Part shown: one piece after another, positions 2,244 through 20,871 of the stretch | How the letters are laid out: each line of letters starts with the position of its first letter | Numbering within the stretch: position 1 is the stretch's first letter | From: a virus | Virus record (IMG/VR): IMGVR_UViG_3300038416_000752 | Location: 1 to 22,419 of that record | DNA length: 22,419 nt | Direction: 5' to 3' (one strand) | Program-made: the position numbers and the translations under genes | Notes under the pieces: model-generated | Seen by the model: only the letters and a program-made list of their open reading frames with translations | What the model was told of the DNA's origin: nothing | Database searches by the model: none

Positions 2244-2531
2244 TTAGTGGTTGACTGCGGGGATTGGTTTCAGTGGCCGCGCGAGCCGTTCTTTGCCGAA
2301 CGATCCGGCCAGACGCGGAATGATGTTGAATTCAGCCTGGCAGCCGGCGCACTGGATGTTCACGTTCATGCCGCCATGCGGGCCTTCCAGGAACTGCTCT
2401 GATCCGCAGTCCGGGCATTTGCCGGCATCAAGCGCGGCTACTTCGGCCTCGGTTAATTCCTCAATCTTGTGCCGATCCTTGGCGGCAAGCAGCGCGCGGG
2501 CGGTTGGGGAGATAGCTTCGAGGATGCTCAC
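2244..2531 (-). CDS. Small zinc-ribbon protein
   Basis: This 95-residue protein has two Cys pairs, CPDCGSEQFLEGPHGGMNVN followed by IQCAGC (about residues 39-64). That is a typical zinc ribbon, with a helical N-terminal part of about 35 residues. Zinc ribbons bind DNA, RNA or protein; no specific family is recognised. The start overlaps the stop of the upstream gene (ATGA at 2528-2531), and the stop is 3 nt before gam, so it is co-translated within the early operon. A small transcription or DNA-processing accessory factor is a reasonable but unproven role. Confidence 0.7.
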   Translation of the reverse strand: MSILEAISPTARALLAAKDRHKIEELTEAEVAALDAGKCPDCGSEQFLEGPHGGMNVNIQCAGCQAEFNIIPRLAGSFGKERLARPLKPIPAVNH

Positions 2532-2944
2532 GCGAGTTCTCCTCTCTCGCCGACCAGGGCGATCTGGTGCCGCGCCAGATTTTTAACGAGCCGGACCTTG
2601 GCATCGGCTGCCAGGCGGCGGACGATGGCTTGCGGAGCGTCGGTTGAAGATTCCGACACATGGTATGCGGCGCCGGAAATTTCAACCTGCTGGAAATCCT
2701 CGGTCAGGTGCCAGTAGCGCAACGTGACATCCAGCGTCAATTCCCGGTCCAATTTCAGGACCGGCACCACGGCCAGGATGATCTCAATCACGCCGGCTAT
2801 GCTCTCTCCTCGCGCCATGACCTGGATGGCGCCGCCGTTCTCGAATGTGGCTGTGATTTGCCGTTCATAGAACGCATCCGGCTCGTCCTTGCCGGCATGC
2901 ATGAGGTTGGTGGTTTGCTCTAACTGCGATTTGTTCTTTTTCAT
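2528..2944 (-). CDS. Conserved-looking phage early protein, unknown function
   Basis: This is a 138-residue soluble protein with no recognised domain. The N-terminus is charged (MKKNKSQLEQ). The centre (ENGGAIQVMARGESIAGVIE then IILAVVPVLKLD) reads like a mixed alpha/beta fold, and the C-terminus is basic and helical (IVRRLAADAKVRLVKNLARH). No clear ribosome site precedes the ATG, and there are 30 nt to the upstream stop. It sits between the MuB-side unknown and the zinc-ribbon gene. Presence in a tightly packed operon and typical codon use support it as a real gene. Confidence 0.65.
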   Translation of the reverse strand: MKKNKSQLEQTTNLMHAGKDEPDAFYERQITATFENGGAIQVMARGESIAGVIEIILAVVPVLKLDRELTLDVTLRYWHLTEDFQQVEISGAAYHVSESSTDAPQAIVRRLAADAKVRLVKNLARHQIALVGERGELA

Positions 2945-2974
2945 TGCCCGATTTTGGTTGTGGTTTGACTGCGG

Positions 2975-3370
2975 TTAACTGATGGCCAGGTCCGCTTGCT
3001 GGGCGGCGGCTGGCCGGTGATTGCGGCGAAGGAATTCCTCCGCCACCGAACGCGAGCAAAGGCGGTGGACGTTCACCCACCGGCCCTTGCTCTCGTCGCG
3101 TTCGGATTTGATTCGTTCCTGGTAAAAGACCTGCGCCACGAACACGCCGACCGGCTCAAGGACGCTGGCGTTGGTGAGCATGGAAACCACCGAGCCGGCG
3201 ATGCCGTTGCCGTCGCCCCGATCCGCGTCCGGCACGATGTCCGTGGTGAACTTGTTGACCCCGCCATGCAGCAACCCAAGCGCGTGCTCCACCAGGCTGA
3301 TGGCGAACGTGAGCATCTCATCGTTCTTCCAAACGACCTGCTGGTCCACGGCTTTGGCGGGTGCGGGCAT
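2975..3370 (-). CDS. Early-operon protein of unknown function, possible winged-helix tail
   Basis: This 131-residue protein starts at MPAPAKAVDQQ. That start is chosen because a GGGAG stretch sits just upstream and the ATG is only 2 nt after the MuB TAA; an ATG at 3382 would overlap MuB. The N-terminal half is hydrophobic and helical (MLTFAISLVEHALGLLHGG). The C-terminal segment (ERIKSERDESKGRWVNVHRL) resembles the beta-hairpin wing and recognition part of small winged-helix proteins, but the evidence is weak. No catalytic motif was seen. It lies immediately after MuB, a place that often holds small replication or regulation genes. Confidence 0.6.
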   Translation of the reverse strand: MPAPAKAVDQQVVWKNDEMLTFAISLVEHALGLLHGGVNKFTTDIVPDADRGDGNGIAGSVVSMLTNASVLEPVGVFVAQVFYQERIKSERDESKGRWVNVHRLCSRSVAEEFLRRNHRPAAAQQADLAIS

Positions 3371-4537: not shown

Positions 4538-6469
4538 TTACAACAGCGCTTCGGCGCTGAAATCGTCTCCGCCCTCCGTCTTGGAAGGGTCAGCGGCCTC
4601 GGCCAGTTCGCCGACCTCGCCGGCGTAGTTGCGCACGGCGCGCTGGTGTTTCTTTTCCTCCGGCGTCTGGCCAAGCACGCCGGCATTGTGGCGGGAATCC
4701 TCCAGCCGTTTGCGGGTGAGTTCCGCGCCGCGCGCGGCCACGGGCGCGAGCAGTTCGCGCTCCACCTTGGCCGCCGCGCCCATCGCCCGGTGCAATGCCC
4801 CGGCATCGTCGTGCGGGACGGTCTGCCAGGCTTTCACGACGCCGATCCAGCAGCCGCGCGCGTCGAAGAGGTGCGCCACCTCTGGCGAGAAGGGATTCAC
4901 CACGGCGGAAAACTTGTCGCCCGGTGAGAAGTGGTGCGCCAGGTAACGCAGCGTGGCGGGTGAAATCTCCTGGTCGTCAAACTCAATCAGGTGGTCCTCG
5001 CCCACCGTCACTTCGCGGGCGACGCGCTCCTTGAGCAGCATGGCGGTCTGTTCGGGGCGGAACTTCACCAGGTCGCCGCGCCCGGCGTCGAATACCTCGC
5101 GCGGACTCAGCTTGCGCGCCACCGGCTGCGCGACGGCGTAAATCGCGTTGCGCTTTTCGTCGGGCAGTTCCAGCACCTTGGCGCCGGTCAGCAGTCCGAC
5201 GCCCGGCACGTCGAAGTCCATCGTGGTGAGACCGGCTTCCAGCCAGCCCTCCAGTTCGTGCTCGGTGCGCTGATTGATGCGCTCAATGATTTCCTCCACG
5301 AGCCAGCGCGCCTGATTGACTTCCAGGAACGGCAGCCGGAGTTGCGCGACGCGCGCGGGTGGAAGCGCGGCCATTGCCTTGAGCAACGCATCAGCGTGCT
5401 TGTCGCGCCCTGCCAGTTCTTCCGGCAGGTTTAAACGGCTGTTGCTCCCGGTCTGGCCGGGCACCGCCAGCAGATTGGCCGTCTCGTTGTGGATCAGGTT
5501 GCCGAGACTTTCGAGCGCGGCCTTGAAACGGAAGTTGCCCTTGCCGCGCCCGGCGTATTGACCGGCGAACGAACTGGCGCCTTCGATGCCGCTGCGGTCC
5601 ACGAGCACCTTGCCGGCGGTCAGATCGAACAGGACTTTTTCGAGTTCCTCGCGGATGGCGGCGGTACCGTGCTCGACCATCAGCACGCAACCGTCCGGAT
5701 GATAACCGAACTCGGTGAGAACGTGCGCCACCAGGAAGAGCATTTCGTTTTCCTTGAGGCCGACCGATGAACCCGTTTCCGGGTCTTCCATGCGCGGCTT
5801 GATGCCGCGCGCGAACTGGCAGGCCGAAAACAGATCGTGCGCGTGCAGTTGCAGCAGGCGCATGGCGCGGCGCTGGCCGACCATCACCACCTTGAAGTCG
5901 TGCCACATATCGTCGAAGATGTATCGCTCGCCCACGCGCAGGCCGTTGCGCGTGGTGAAAAGTTTCGGGCGGAAATCGGCGGCGGCGCTGCGCCCGATGC
6001 GCGAGGCGGTGAGTTCAAACTGGGTGGGCTTGTAACGGATGAGATTACAGTAGGTGTAACCGAGCGGCAGGGCGTGGCGCGGCGTGCCGGGCGGCAGGCC
6101 GGGAATGGCTGTACCATCCTTGAAGCGCCGCACAAATTCGCGATAAGCCGGTTTGCATTTGCGCCCGTTCTCCTGGCACAGCTTTTTCCACCACTCAATG
6201 AACTGCGGATCGAGGCCGCGATCCTCCGGCACCTTGGCGCGGTTGATGAGACCCTTCCAGCCCTCGCGCCGCCAGTCGTCGTACCGGCGGCGGGCGGTCT
6301 TGAGCGATACGCCCAGGCGGTTGGCAATTTTCTCCAGGTTGCGCTGGATCGGTTTTGTGACGGCCTGCAATTCGCGGTCCCACTTTTCCACCTCACGCCG
6401 GACTTCGGAGGGTAACTGGAGAAACTCGGCGAGGTCGTGCGATTCGATTTGGAGGGAGGAGGTTGTCAT
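4538..6469 (-). CDS. MuA-like DDE transposase
   Basis: This 643-residue enzyme is expected to nick and join phage ends to target DNA; Mu A is 663 residues by recall. Residues about 38-75 form an HTH (IQRNLEKIANRLGVSLKTAR) typical of Mu-type end-binding domains. The catalytic core spans about 180-330: YIFDDMWHDF holds the first Asp (186 or 187), VLMVEHGTAAI sits where the second Asp is expected but has Glu266, and FKAALESL carries Glu320. The Glu266-Glu320 spacing (54) is close to the second Asp to Glu spacing in Mu A (56). A beta-barrel-like domain follows (about 460-560), then a charged C-terminal tail that could contact MuB. Its ATG overlaps the upstream stop (ATGA). Confidence 0.92.
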   Translation of the reverse strand: MTTSSLQIESHDLAEFLQLPSEVRREVEKWDRELQAVTKPIQRNLEKIANRLGVSLKTARRRYDDWRREGWKGLINRAKVPEDRGLDPQFIEWWKKLCQENGRKCKPAYREFVRRFKDGTAIPGLPPGTPRHALPLGYTYCNLIRYKPTQFELTASRIGRSAAADFRPKLFTTRNGLRVGERYIFDDMWHDFKVVMVGQRRAMRLLQLHAHDLFSACQFARGIKPRMEDPETGSSVGLKENEMLFLVAHVLTEFGYHPDGCVLMVEHGTAAIREELEKVLFDLTAGKVLVDRSGIEGASSFAGQYAGRGKGNFRFKAALESLGNLIHNETANLLAVPGQTGSNSRLNLPEELAGRDKHADALLKAMAALPPARVAQLRLPFLEVNQARWLVEEIIERINQRTEHELEGWLEAGLTTMDFDVPGVGLLTGAKVLELPDEKRNAIYAVAQPVARKLSPREVFDAGRGDLVKFRPEQTAMLLKERVAREVTVGEDHLIEFDDQEISPATLRYLAHHFSPGDKFSAVVNPFSPEVAHLFDARGCWIGVVKAWQTVPHDDAGALHRAMGAAAKVERELLAPVAARGAELTRKRLEDSRHNAGVLGQTPEEKKHQRAVRNYAGEVGELAEAADPSKTEGGDDFSAEALL

Positions 6470-7221
6470 AATTTTGTGTCGAACAGATGTTCAATGGCCG
6501 ACGCCACGCGGTTGGTTTTCGGCTGTTTAAGCCAGGCTCGACGGGCGGTTAAATGGCGTTCGAGCACGGCAATCTGCGCCTCCACGCTGGTATCGGAGAG
6601 CACCGTGAATTTGCCGCGATAGACCTTGAACATGTCGGCCATCTCGGCCCAATCCTCCACGGCCTGGACCTTGAGCAGCTCGGCGCGTTCGCTGATACTC
6701 AGCTTGCGGCTGCCGCCCTCGCCCGGTGCGCGCCCGGTCGCGCCGGCCCCCTGGTGTTTTTTCCACAGGCCAAGGTCTTCGCCAAAATCCTTCTGCGTCT
6801 TGTTGTCGGTCAACTTGCGCACACCGGCCTGGAGCGCCTCCTTCTGCGGCGCGGTCAGCAGCGCCATCGGTTTGTTCAAGGGGTCGAACCCGCGCAACGC
6901 CACGATTTTTTTCAGGCGCGGCGCGGCGGCCTTGGCCATGTCCATGAAACGATAGGCGGTGGAACTGGATAGGTTGGTTTCCTTGGCCAGGATTTCGTCC
7001 CAGGCACCTTTCCCATCGTGGGAAAGGTGGGCCTTGGAGCCGTTCGTGATGCCGTGGTTTTTGTGCAATTCCATCAACTCAAATCCCGCCATGACTTGGC
7101 AGAACAATTTGCCCTGCTCGAACAGACCGGCGGCGCTGATCCATTGCCGGGCGCCGTCCCAGGTGCCGGTGATTTGCGCGGGCGTGGATGGGTTAAGTTT
7201 TTGCAGATTTTGTTCACTCAT
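6466..7221 (-). CDS. Transposase-adjacent early protein, unknown (DUF3102-like flavour)
   Basis: This 251-residue soluble protein sits directly upstream of the transposase and overlaps it by 4 nt. Its first half contains WISAAGLFEQGKLFCQVMAG, then GKGAWDEILAKETNLSSSTA followed by YRFMDMAKAA. This pattern resembles DUF3102-type or ParB-like phage proteins in which a helix-turn-helix (TNLSSSTAYRFMDMA) is evident. The middle (about 150-175) is a glycine/arginine-rich linker and the C-terminal part is helical with basic residues. A DNA-binding accessory role in replication or control is plausible but inferred. The start lies 3 nt after the preceding gene's TGA. Confidence 0.7.
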   Translation of the reverse strand: MSEQNLQKLNPSTPAQITGTWDGARQWISAAGLFEQGKLFCQVMAGFELMELHKNHGITNGSKAHLSHDGKGAWDEILAKETNLSSSTAYRFMDMAKAAAPRLKKIVALRGFDPLNKPMALLTAPQKEALQAGVRKLTDNKTQKDFGEDLGLWKKHQGAGATGRAPGEGGSRKLSISERAELLKVQAVEDWAEMADMFKVYRGKFTVLSDTSVEAQIAVLERHLTARRAWLKQPKTNRVASAIEHLFDTKL

Positions 7222-7897: not shown

Positions 7898-8331
7898 TGC
7901 AGCCTCCGTTCCAGAAACGCCGCCAGGCTGGCGCGCGTCAGTTCGCGGTTCACTTCGGTGAGTTCGCCCGTGCGCACCAGGCGCGAGATGGTCATGTGGT
8001 TCATCGTCCACTGGACCTCAATTTCGCCACGCGGGAAGGTCCGGCGCGTGCCAAGAATTTTTGCGATTGCCACGCGCGGCTCGCTCCACTTGTTCACGTC
8101 GCCGGTGATCTCTTCTTTCCAAAAGCGCAGTTCGCGGATTTCGCCATCCGGCTTGACGCCGATGTTGAAGACCCACCGCAGAAACTTCGGGTGCGTGGCG
8201 TCCCCGACACAATTAAGCACGCTCTCGGCATCGCACCCGCGCGCGATGCGCACCGCCTCCAGCGTCACCAGCACGGTGCGCGCGCTGATCTCCAGCGGCA
8301 GGCTGCGCTGCATGGCGAGGCGAGTGGTCAT
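7894..8331 (-). CDS. 145-residue early-operon protein, unknown function
   Basis: The protein contains MQRSLPLEISARTVLVTLEA then VRIARGCDAESVLNCVG, followed by HPKFLRWVFNIGV and a helical C-terminus with repeated Arg (ELTRASLAAFLERRL). The segment around residues 100-135 (MTISRLVRTGELTEVNRE) may be a small HTH. No known domain can be named with confidence. Both ends are ATGA-coupled to neighbours. The internal consistency of hydrophobic and charged patterning suggests a real, conserved phage protein. Confidence 0.7.
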   Translation of the reverse strand: MTTRLAMQRSLPLEISARTVLVTLEAVRIARGCDAESVLNCVGDATHPKFLRWVFNIGVKPDGEIRELRFWKEEITGDVNKWSEPRVAIAKILGTRRTFPRGEIEVQWTMNHMTISRLVRTGELTEVNRELTRASLAAFLERRLQ

Positions 8332-8609
8332 ATCGTGGCAAGAGTGGCGATAGCTTCCTCGCGCAGGTTCATTGAACTGCGTAACATGGCCAGTTGGTTG
8401 GTTGACAACTCATCCCGGCTGCACATGTCTTCCGCCAGGCGACGGAACGAGCGCACCTCGTCAATGGTTGTGGCGCGCATCACTGCGCCCAGGATTTCAT
8501 CGTAGGTAGAAGCGCATCGGGCAGCCTGCTCTCTGGCAACCTCGTCGCTCTCGGTGTTGTTCATGCCGCCGGCTTGGCAGGCTTCATATACTTCGTCGTA
8601 TGTTTTCAT
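8328..8609 (-). CDS. 93-residue helical early protein, unknown function
   Basis: This is an acidic, helical protein (MKTYDEVYEACQAGGMNN at the start; DEVRSFRRLAEDMCSRDEL further on). It has a good ribosome site, GGAGT 4 nt before the ATG, one of the few strong ones in this operon, so it may be translated independently of the gene upstream. A 100-bp gap containing a stable-looking hairpin separates it from the preceding gene. No domain is recognised. Confidence 0.65.
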   Translation of the reverse strand: MKTYDEVYEACQAGGMNNTESDEVAREQAARCASTYDEILGAVMRATTIDEVRSFRRLAEDMCSRDELSTNQLAMLRSSMNLREEAIATLATI

Positions 8610-8709: not shown

Positions 8710-8931
8710 TCATTGCGCGGCCTCCAGTTTTAGAAGCTCCTGAAATTTCATCTGCGCCAATTCGTGAGCGCGGATGGATTCGAGAACCTGCTTTACCTCG
8801 GTACGGCGTGGATAATTTTTTGGGAGCAGCACGAGTAGTGTGACCAAGTCCTCTTTGCGTTGGGCGATGTTATCCGGCAGCCGCGCGATGGTGCGCGCCA
8901 CAAAATGGTCGAGGTGTATCGGATTAATCAT
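8710..8931 (-). CDS. 73-residue early protein, unknown function
   Basis: This is the second gene of the early operon. Its ATG overlaps the TGA of the Ner-like gene. The sequence is all-helical in character (HFVARTIARLPDNIAQRKED then LVTLLVLLPKNYPRRTEVKQ and a C-terminal amphipathic helix KFQELLKLEAAQ). No catalytic or metal-binding residues stand out. It could be a small regulatory or adaptor protein working with the HTH protein encoded upstream, based only on position. Confidence 0.6.
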   Translation of the reverse strand: MINPIHLDHFVARTIARLPDNIAQRKEDLVTLLVLLPKNYPRRTEVKQVLESIRAHELAQMKFQELLKLEAAQ

Positions 8932-9185: not shown

Positions 9186-9629
9186 GTGAGGCCGGAAAAC
9201 CTTGAATTCATTGCCCTACTAGAGGCGTCGGGCTGGAAACCGATTGATGTTGCTCGCCGACTTGAGCTGAGTCGTGGCGCGATCAGCCGCTACAAGTCTG
9301 GCGACATGAAGCCCAGTCCGCAGGTTTTGCAGTTATTCAAATTCATCCTGGCCAGCGAGCAGCCGGGTGCATTAGCGCCGCTGGCCTTGAAAGAGGAATC
9401 GCTCGCCTCTTGGGAAAGAAAAATTCTGGACGACCTCCGCTGGCTACACGACGCGGACCGCGCGCATGTGCTGAAGGTGATCCGCACCTTGATCGAAGGA
9501 CTCCCGAAACGAGAGCCGGTTTCCTGCCAGAAAACAAAGCCGGTCAGTTCCGGTAAAAAGAGTCCGACGGATCAGATGGTGGAGATAATCGAAAACCACG
9601 TTGGGAAGAATTACGGCGCTCCAAAATAG
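9186..9629 (+). CDS. XRE-family phage repressor (c-like)
   Basis: This 147-residue protein uses a GTG start. Residues about 8-45 (LLEASGWKPIDVARRLELSR then GAISRYKSGDMKPSPQ) are a clear XRE/Cro-type HTH. The rest is helical and charged, with a Lys/Ser-rich linker (about 105-130), and may serve for oligomerisation. It has no LexA-like peptidase residues, so RecA-driven self-cleavage is not expected. It diverges from the early operon and sits in the place of Mu c repressor, although Mu c has a different DNA-binding fold. No ribosome site precedes the GTG and a promoter -10 ends 5 bp before it, which suggests leaderless translation as for lambda cI. Confidence 0.82.
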   Translation: MRPENLEFIALLEASGWKPIDVARRLELSRGAISRYKSGDMKPSPQVLQLFKFILASEQPGALAPLALKEESLASWERKILDDLRWLHDADRAHVLKVIRTLIEGLPKREPVSCQKTKPVSSGKKSPTDQMVEIIENHVGKNYGAPK

Positions 9630-9714: not shown

Positions 9715-9942
9715 GATAAAAAAGCGCGGACCCGGCATACCGGAACCGAGGCACCGCGAAGCGCCCTTACCCCAATACACCGAGCCGCGCCAATTGACGC
9801 GCGCTCGGATTTGGGGAGTAAGAGAAAATTCGCGGTTTTCGGAACCGCCAAATCCGTCGCTCAAACTTATACGCAGACTGTGCCTCAATCTTCGGAAAAA
9901 TCGAAGCCATTTCTTGCGATTTACTACCTGCTTCTTGTTGAC
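9630..9942. other. 313-bp gap with inverted repeats, no convincing plus-strand gene
   Basis: Apart from the possible small minus-strand ORF at its left end, I see no gene. The plus frame is open through much of it but reads like noise before the lipoprotein signal at 9943. There are two inverted repeats. CGAGC (9781-9785) pairs with GCTCG (9803-9807), with an inner GCGC pair. GCGGTT (9832-9837) pairs with AACCGC (9843-9848). Neither has a T-tract. They may be part of an untranslated leader or a weak termination zone after the repressor. Confidence 0.5.
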
Positions 9943-11694: not shown

Positions 11695-11892
11695 ATGTGG
11701 AACGCCGTTACAGCCGTCTTCACCGCCATCGGTCGCGCGCTCGGACTGGTCCAACAGCGCGATGCCGAGAAGAACGCGGCGGACGTGAAGGCGTCGGCCA
11801 TCGCCGGCTCGGAACAAAAGCAGGTTGACCAGGCGACCGAGGCCGTGGCGAAAGATGACGTAACTGAAATTAGAAACGATTTGGCGGAGTAA
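11695..11892 (+). CDS. 65-residue small late protein, unknown function
   Basis: The protein starts MWNAVTAVFTAIGRALGLVQ, a moderately hydrophobic amphipathic helix. A charged, Ala/Glu-rich helix or coiled coil follows (about 22-65). The ATG immediately follows the TAA of the fused ORF, so translation is probably coupled. A membrane-associated lysis accessory (for example an antiholin or a small spanin-like protein) would fit the location, but no family is recognised. Confidence 0.6.
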   Translation: MWNAVTAVFTAIGRALGLVQQRDAEKNAADVKASAIAGSEQKQVDQATEAVAKDDVTEIRNDLAE

Positions 11893-11916
11893 ACAACAAA
11901 CAACCCAAAGGAAAAT

Positions 11917-12147
11917 ATGCACTTCAAAAACGGCAGAGAAGCAAAGAACGGCGATAAGGTAATTCTGATTCCATCCTACGGACCTCCGGTGGCGGGGATT
12001 CTGTATGACGCAGTGGCAGGCAACGATGCCTGCAATGGTAGGTTGGCGATTCCCTCGCAGAGCGACCCGGTGGCAAACCTATCAGAATGTTTGCACGCCG
12101 ACGATGTGGCCAAGGCGACAATCCCTGATTCATCTGCGCCGAAATAA
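11917..12147 (+). CDS. 76-residue late-operon protein, unknown function
   Basis: The N-terminus MHFKNGREAKNGDKVILIPS followed by GPPVAGILYDA reads like a small SH3/KOW-type beta barrel with a G-D-K-V turn. Two Cys (about residues 39 and 59) are present, with the phrase NLSECLHADDVAKA near the C-terminus. AAAGGAAAA lies about 5-8 nt before the ATG as a ribosome site. It lies between small lysis-region genes. Its function is unknown; a nucleic-acid or protein-binding barrel is inferred from the pattern alone. Confidence 0.68.
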   Translation: MHFKNGREAKNGDKVILIPSYGPPVAGILYDAVAGNDACNGRLAIPSQSDPVANLSECLHADDVAKATIPDSSAPK

Positions 12148-12270
12148 ATTTCGCACAGCGAAATGGAATAACACCTACACATGAAACCAAAACAGCCGCG
12201 CCGGACGACTGAAGATTGTGCGCACAATCTTGAAGGCTGGGGATCGGGCGAAAGCCCGGCGGCCATCCGG
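12148..12270 (+). other. Structured intergenic element: three hairpins including a 20-bp palindrome
   Basis: Three strong inverted repeats follow one another. ATTTCGC-ACA-GCGAAAT lies at 12148-12164. A perfect 20-bp palindrome, AAGATTGTGCGCACAATCTT, lies at 12212-12231. CGGGC-GAAA-GCCCG, with a GNRA loop, lies at 12245-12258, and outer GGAT/ATCC (12241-12244, 12265-12268) can extend its stem. An open frame crosses it from 12181 into the lipoprotein gene, but that peptide does not look like a protein. It may be a structured RNA, a REP-like mobile repeat or a protein-binding site. Confidence 0.5.
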
Positions 12271-12294
12271 CACCTTTACCGTCATCAGGTTCTC

Positions 12295-12678
12295 ATGGCG
12301 GCGATCCACTGTTTTGTTACCTGTCTGTTAACACTGCTCGCATTTGCTCTGCTCATTCTTTTAACGAGTTGCGGCACGGTCATTCCCAAGCCCGTCCAGG
12401 CGAACGTGGCGAGCTACGACGGCGGCGCGCAGAACAGCGGCTTGATTTGCATGACCACGAACAGCACCGGAGAGGTGACCGGCGCTGTCATCACGCCTCA
12501 CGCGCGGGACCGCTACAACGCACTCGTCACACTTTACAGCACGAACTTTTTTCCGCGCCTGGAGATTGACGCCGGCATCACGCCCGCGCCGCCTAACTTC
12601 CGCATTGATGCCGAACACCTCGTTGACTTCATGCGGATGAACCGATGGCACAAGGCAGCCGCCCCACCCAAACCATGA
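12295..12678 (+). CDS. Late-operon lipoprotein
   Basis: This 127-residue protein starts MAAIHCFVTCLLTLLAFALL and has a lipobox LTSC with Cys26 as the lipidation site. The mature domain of about 100 residues (PVQANVASYDGGAQNSGL then ARDRYNALVTLYSTNFFPRL) is of no recognised family. ATG at 12295 is preferred over 12181 because it gives a correctly sized signal peptide. The stop overlaps the next ATG (ATGA at 12675-12678). A lipoprotein directly before a membrane/coiled-coil gene recalls outer-membrane and inner-membrane spanin pairs, but this one is longer than typical Rz1, so that role is unproven. Confidence 0.68.
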   Translation: MAAIHCFVTCLLTLLAFALLILLTSCGTVIPKPVQANVASYDGGAQNSGLICMTTNSTGEVTGAVITPHARDRYNALVTLYSTNFFPRLEIDAGITPAPPNFRIDAEHLVDFMRMNRWHKAAAPPKP

Positions 12679-13103
12679 ACCCACTTGCTCAACGCGTGCG
12701 CCCGATAATACTGGCTCAATCCACCGACCTGCCTTCCGTGCCCGACTCCACGTTGAAGTGGGTGCTGATTATTTTGATTTCCATTTGTCTCATCGCGGCG
12801 GCCCTGTACGCCGCCTTCCGCAAAAGCGGTCCCGTGAAGATTGACGATAACCCGCCCCCGGAATATCGCAAGGCGCCCAAGCGGTATAACCACGACGCGA
12901 CCGAGCAACGGTTTGTCCGTGCCGAGAACCGGCTGGATGGTCACGACACGGAACTGGACCGGCTCTGGCAGACGCTGCGGGTTGACCTGCCGGAAATGGA
13001 ACGCCGCATCAACAAGGCGGGTGAGGACCGGATTGAAAAAGTCCGCGAGCAGGTCAACCAGGTGCTGGAGAAGATCGGCGAATTGAAGGGGAGGGTGGAA
13101 TGA
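12675..13103 (+). CDS. Membrane-anchored coiled-coil protein (Mu gp25/DUF2730-like)
   Basis: This 142-residue protein has one membrane helix (about 29-48, LKWVLIILISICLIAAALYA) and a basic Pro-rich linker. A long coiled coil follows (about 75-142; ENRLDGHDTELDRLWQTL, IEKVREQVNQVLEKIGELKG). The position two genes before terminase and the membrane-then-coiled-coil layout match the Mu gp25-type (DUF2730) protein, whose function is unknown. An inner-membrane spanin is an alternative given the lipoprotein gene just upstream. The start at 12675 is fixed by the ATGA overlap; a longer frame from 12645 is less likely. Confidence 0.68.
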   Translation: MNPLAQRVRPIILAQSTDLPSVPDSTLKWVLIILISICLIAAALYAAFRKSGPVKIDDNPPPEYRKAPKRYNHDATEQRFVRAENRLDGHDTELDRLWQTLRVDLPEMERRINKAGEDRIEKVREQVNQVLEKIGELKGRVE

Positions 13104-20643: not shown

Positions 20644-20871
20644 ATGCTTAATCAGCCGCCACAGGATCGGATGCTCAGAACGCGTGATGCTAACACGCGC
20701 GATGAACGCGCTGCCCCCGCAGTGCCGCATCCTGTGGCGGCTTCTCTCCCTGTCACGCCGAAGCGGAGCAAAGGCGGACGCCGCGCCACCACCGCCGAAG
20801 TCATTGGCCGCGATCCGCGCCTCAACAACATCGTCGCCGGACGCGACGGCATCATTCACCTGGAATCATGA
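20644..20871 (+). CDS. 75-residue basic Pro-rich protein, unknown function
   Basis: The N-terminal part (MLNQPPQDRMLRTRDANTRD) is charged and disordered-looking. The C-terminal 30 residues (TTAEVIGRDPRLNNIVAGRD then GIIHLES) are more ordered. The ATG lies 5 nt after the preceding stop, and the stop overlaps the next ATG (ATGA at 20868). It is not recognised. The location between capsid and head-tail connector genes suggests a small virion or assembly factor. The reading frame rests mainly on the overlap. Confidence 0.55.
   Translation: MLNQPPQDRMLRTRDANTRDERAAPAVPHPVAASLPVTPKRSKGGRRATTAEVIGRDPRLNNIVAGRDGIIHLES

Follow-up and report, generated by a model that had tools for sequence, protein, structure and literature searches.

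A hairpin-rich stretch in the late genes of a Mu-like phage as the probable tail of a phage-specific insert

What do three strong inverted repeats, crowded into 123 bp between two late genes of a phage, signify? The question arose from the initial annotation of a 22,419-bp virus contig (IMG/VR record IMGVR_UViG_3300038416_000752), the whole of which is called the window here. That annotation placed the repeats at 12148-12270 and considered an unrecognised structured RNA, a REP-like mobile repeat or a site for a dimeric regulator. All three repeats, including a perfect 20-bp palindrome and a GAAA hairpin, are present as located (Table 1). The stretch nevertheless looks ordinary, with no sign of a conserved RNA, a mobile repeat or a repeated regulatory site, and we consider it to be probably the tail, specific to this phage, of a moron-like cargo insert.

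Table 1. Features of the hairpin stretch and of the neighbouring late genes
Feature	Position	Strand	Description
Small late gene	11695..11892	+	'...EIR.(D/E)L.E*'; at 13 loci its homologues adjoin the lipoprotein gene or overlap it
Putative phage-specific insert	11893..12294	+	right edge uncertain, roughly 12250-12300
Cargo gene	11917..12147	+	76 aa, MH[YF]KNGREAKNGDKV family
Hairpin 1	12148..12164	+	ATTTCGC-ACA-GCGAAAT, stem of 7 bp, loop ACA; immediately 3' of the stop codon of ORF 11917
Lipoprotein gene, long reading	12181..12678	+	165 aa, open frame
Predicted three-way junction	12200..12271	+	closing stem GCCGGA/TCCGGC enclosing hairpins 2 and 3
Hairpin 2, perfect 20-bp palindrome AAGATTGTGCGCACAATCTT	12212..12231	.	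arms AAGATTGTGC/GCACAATCTT, no spacer
Hairpin 3	12245..12258	+	CGGGC-GAAA-GCCCG
Weak hairpin	12279..12301	+	CCGTCAT/ATGGCGG; pairs candidate start codon ATG 12295; z -1.4
Conserved part of lipoprotein gene	12295..12678	+	127 aa; signal helix and LTSC lipobox

The phage and its hairpin stretch

The minus strand of the window encodes homologues of a transposase (phrog_310), a transposition protein (phrog_296) and Gam (phrog_491), and the plus strand carries Mu F-like and HK97-type head genes; the window is therefore attributed to a Mu-like transposable phage. These genes are held in common with the Mu-like transposable phages (MuA, MuB, Gam and head genes), from which the present phage differs in that its relatives are known here in uncultured Verrucomicrobiota and in that the proteins of its late cassette belong to no named family. 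Relatives of the terminase were found at 42 viral loci and at 15 loci in bacterial assemblies, the latter nearly all from Verrucomicrobiota, which makes this phylum the likely host. A tblastn search against an annotated phage collection gave no match. A second IMG/VR contig has an identical sequence across the hairpin region, which argues against an assembly error.

Of the three repeats, the palindrome is notable, the rest of the stretch is near background, and the overall fold is mildly unusual. Spacerless palindromes with arms of at least 10 bp are expected 0.07 times per 22 kb, as estimated from 60 Markov simulations of the window, and the 20-bp palindrome was matched by none of 100 shuffles of the local 150 nt. 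Such a palindrome is hard to obtain by chance in 150 nt and thus hints at selection. Hairpins with arms of at least 7 bp are in no clear excess over the window as a whole (22 observed vs 17 expected). The predicted RNA folds of 12140-12275 and 12148-12272 have z-values of -2.5 and -2.2, equalled by 1 and 5 of 200 shuffles, respectively, and that of the three-way junction (12194-12275) reaches only -1.65; these values give too strong an impression because the region had been picked for looking structured. In a fold scan of the whole window with 40 shuffles per scanned position, the stretch ranked eighth of 1118 (z -4.1), and the folds above it include those at 9728(+), 2968(-) and 20648(+).

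The window contains several further features. The strongest fold (z -6.5) is a long imperfect hairpin at 9715-9862 (+), 3' of the helix-turn-helix gene 9186-9629, and its relatives at L007:2136 and L014:2468 share about 77% identity over 80-89 bp and also fold strongly. The second-ranked fold (z -4.9), at 2960-3140 (-), consists of GC-rich hairpins of the 12-bp class near the 5' end of ORF 2528-2944(-), and its sequence was found solely in the identical contig. The segment 8623-8713, which takes in part of ORF 8328-8609(-) at its 5' end as well as the gap that follows ORF 8710-8931(-), corresponds to L050:2549-2639, with 91% identity over 91 bp in an otherwise diverged L050. Among the perfect inverted repeats, the one at 7005-7029 (11-bp arms, 3-nt loop) is the longest in the window and lies inside ORF 6466-7221(-).

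Searches for relatives of the stretch

The perfect two-fold symmetry of the palindrome over 20 bp and its position in a gap between conserved genes would suit an operator for a dimeric DNA-binding protein, a candidate control site for the lipoprotein gene and the genes that follow it. The exact palindrome was found in no viral contig beyond the identical phage. An operator of this kind is distinctly improbable, given that the window has no further site even when up to 3 mismatches are allowed, that a single imperfect match (3 mismatches) was found in a set of 17 relatives and hosts, and that no sigma-70-like promoter lies nearby, although that consensus may not be the one used by this host. 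Being palindromic and placed between genes, the stretch also has features of a REP-like mobile repeat, as the initial annotation had suggested. This suggestion did not hold up and is very improbable: the stretch is a single copy in the window, is absent from other viral contigs, and in blastn of its whole length against 384 host-class genomes gave only 24 short matches of 20-36 bp, which were treated as background.

The third proposal, a structured RNA, fared no better. In its fullest form it holds that the three-way junction and the GNRA loop make up a cis-acting or small RNA, either one that controls the lipoprotein or one that arises by processing of the late mRNA. The predicted fold is compact and nested (-41.5 kcal/mol), and in the prediction a weak local hairpin keeps the candidate start codon at 12295 largely base-paired. 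However, the fold is matched by 1-5 of 200 shuffles after a post-hoc choice of region, and a search of Rfam 15 at the gathering and at a permissive threshold gave only chance-level hits. Homologues of the stretch were found neither behind the 86 homologues of ORF 11917 (64 after removal of near-copies), nor at the 13 relatives of the lipoprotein gene, nor in the 384 genomes, which leaves no sequence in which covariation might be seen. The homologues of ORF 11917 likewise have no conserved hairpin 3' of the gene, their downstream 150 nt being near background (mean z -0.66). Collectively, these data make a regulatory or processed RNA unlikely. The initial annotation had named single-copy occurrence together with a lack of conserved pairing in homologues as speaking against its idea, and this is largely what was found: the stretch is single-copy, and no homologue turned up in which its pairing might be conserved. 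We put aside a hammerhead-like reading of CTGAAGA...GAAA, for which Rfam gave no match and whose core bases are taken up by the pairing of the palindrome.

Termination does not explain the stretch either, in agreement with the initial annotation: the plus strand lacks the T run that should follow a GC-rich stem in an intrinsic terminator, and hairpin 1 is terminator-like on the minus strand only.

The insert, its cargo gene and the lipoprotein gene

In 13 relatives the homologues of the small late gene upstream (ORF 11695) and of the lipoprotein gene are neighbours, with 5-135 nt between the upstream stop codon and the lipobox Cys; in the present phage these two points are 478 nt apart. The 13 loci include some near-copies (L182, L183 and L184). 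The difference amounts to about 350-470 extra bases, which comprise ORF 11917-12147, absent from this place in the 13 relatives, and the hairpin stretch. By parsimony, we infer an insertion in this phage in preference to repeated losses among its relatives. As the insert is known from one phage (two identical contigs), its edges are also those that we infer. Its GC content is 53% vs 59.6% in the window, a modest deviation that places it among the 5% of 402-bp segments with the lowest values. Neither a scar of insertion nor a duplication at the flanks was detected, the only direct repeat being an 8-mer expected by chance. A consensus scan gave no sigma-70-like promoter belonging to the insert, though promoter rules may differ in the host, and the only terminator-like match on its plus strand lies inside ORF 11917.

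The protein encoded by ORF 11917 carries the family motif MH[YF]KNGREAKNGDKVV...ECLHLDDV and has 186 relatives in viral contigs, spread over many other phages, and no match in Pfam, PHROG or NCBIfam at the thresholds used. Judged from these relatives, it belongs to a widespread but unclassified family of small phage proteins. Phage morons are cargo genes that have entered between two genes which related phages have side by side. The present insert resembles them in that an extra small gene of lower GC content parts a pair of genes adjoining in the 13 relatives; it differs in that its gene is oriented like the rest of the operon.

The lipoprotein has relatives in Verrucomicrobiota-associated phages and genomes (L075, L076, L175 and L178-L189), whose start coincides with, or lies close to, the Met that corresponds to ATG 12295; that of L075, with 43% identity, starts at the Met aligned with M39, the residue encoded by this ATG. 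The stretch thus probably lies outside the conserved protein, and in this the initial annotation, to which the frame read poorly as protein, was probably right. In these relatives the unnamed lipoprotein family always follows a small '...EIRxELxE' protein.

The main challenge to this conclusion is that the hairpins are ordinary coding DNA, by-products of the codons of an N-terminal extension translated from ATG 12181. This reading treats a sub-case of the insert account as the entire explanation, and it is a serious possibility, if somewhat short of an even chance. An open frame extends from 12181 to 12678, and the extension supplies the Arg/Lys before the signal helix that is present in the homologues; a start at ATG 12295 yields a signal peptide with no Lys or Arg ahead of the hydrophobic stretch, unlike the homologues. 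On the other hand, the extension occurs in no homologue, and a search in six frames for protein relatives of residues 1-38 gave none that was convincing. The codon score of 12181-12294 is within the lowest 3% of true-gene segments, though that of the signal-peptide segment is equally low. No purine-rich site comes closer than 12 nt to ATG 12181, which is a weak criterion; ribosome-site energies are indecisive between the two starts because most genes here have no clear site.

Downstream, the stop codon of the lipoprotein gene overlaps the ATG at 12675 of the next gene. That gene, ORF 12675-13103, shows a weak XhlA-like match. Lysis cassettes contain lipoproteins in the form of outer spanins such as Rz1, and the present gene is like them in encoding a small lipoprotein beside small membrane proteins in a late operon, with a stop that overlaps the next start. 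It differs in having no family match, in a gene order and size that are not those of Rz/Rz1, and in that its role in lysis is putative. The lipoprotein and its neighbours are likely a lysis-type cassette of Verrucomicrobiota phages.

The course of events that we favour can be outlined from these comparisons, although the improbable palindrome, the lack of a detected scar, the occurrence in a single phage and the uncharged start of a signal peptide made from ATG 12295 tell against it. An insert of approximately 11893-12294 would have landed among the late, lysis-type genes of a Mu-like phage, bringing the small cargo gene ORF 11917-12147 and parting the lipoprotein gene from its usual upstream neighbour. 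The hairpin stretch would be the right-hand tail of this insert, with the cargo stop codon on one side and the conserved lipoprotein start on the other. The tail would presumably be transcribed with the operon as mRNA, in which it could serve either as an untranslated leader, with translation from ATG 12295, or as the first 38 codons, with translation from ATG 12181. If the hairpins act at all, they would most probably influence lipoprotein translation in cis. A bolder extension, in which the tail became a phage-specific RNA switch or protein-binding site setting the lipoprotein level, and so lysis timing, after acquisition of the cargo gene, has little probability.

A hairpin among the head genes and the meaning of the comparison

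Another element of the window behaves differently in its relatives. The hairpin at 20656-20740 (+), within the fold of 20648-20772 flagged by the whole-window scan, begins at codon 5 of the small ORF 20644-20871 (MLNQPPQDRM...), between head genes, and compensatory changes preserve it in some 17 related phages, at one place per phage record (among them L050:13286, L007:12890, L011:13176, L041:6273, L012:6923, L006:9656, L008:7511, L054:8530, L062:13026, L025:13036 and L052:6730). The outer stem reads ACAGG/CCTGT in the window and L050, AAAGG/CCTTT in L006, L007, L008 and L054, GCAGG/CCTGC in L011 and ACGGG/CCCGT in L041. Among 12 sequences, with kinship ignored, the outer helix is 98% paired, the structure as a whole shows 11 cells with both-side changes (3.0 in shuffles), and none of 500 shuffles attains the covariation score. 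Nine of the 12 were found by sequence alone; pairing was itself a criterion in choosing the other three (L009, L057 and L062), which biases the count somewhat in favour of pairing. A covariance model search gave further loci, of which L025, L053 and L052, outside the model, pair at all ten outer-stem positions; weaker hits (e.g., L017 and L005) pair poorly.

The hairpin is placed at codons 5-8 of the conserved small ORF (MLNQPPxDRM), and the residue encoded by its 5' arm (Gln, Lys, Arg or Ser) changes together with the 3' arm, such that pairing is kept. Since the peptide is conserved as well, the stretch appears to be under both protein and RNA constraint. The hairpin has no match in Rfam and, on the comparative data, is a candidate dual coding and structured RNA, better placed as a new structured RNA than the stretch at 12148-12270.

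Strong hairpins seen in a single phage need relatives before a meaning can be given to them, and the hairpin stretch taken alone matters little. The comparison that it occasioned is more informative: it points to an insertion into a conserved late cassette, and it defines both a lipoprotein family and a widespread, unnamed family of small proteins.
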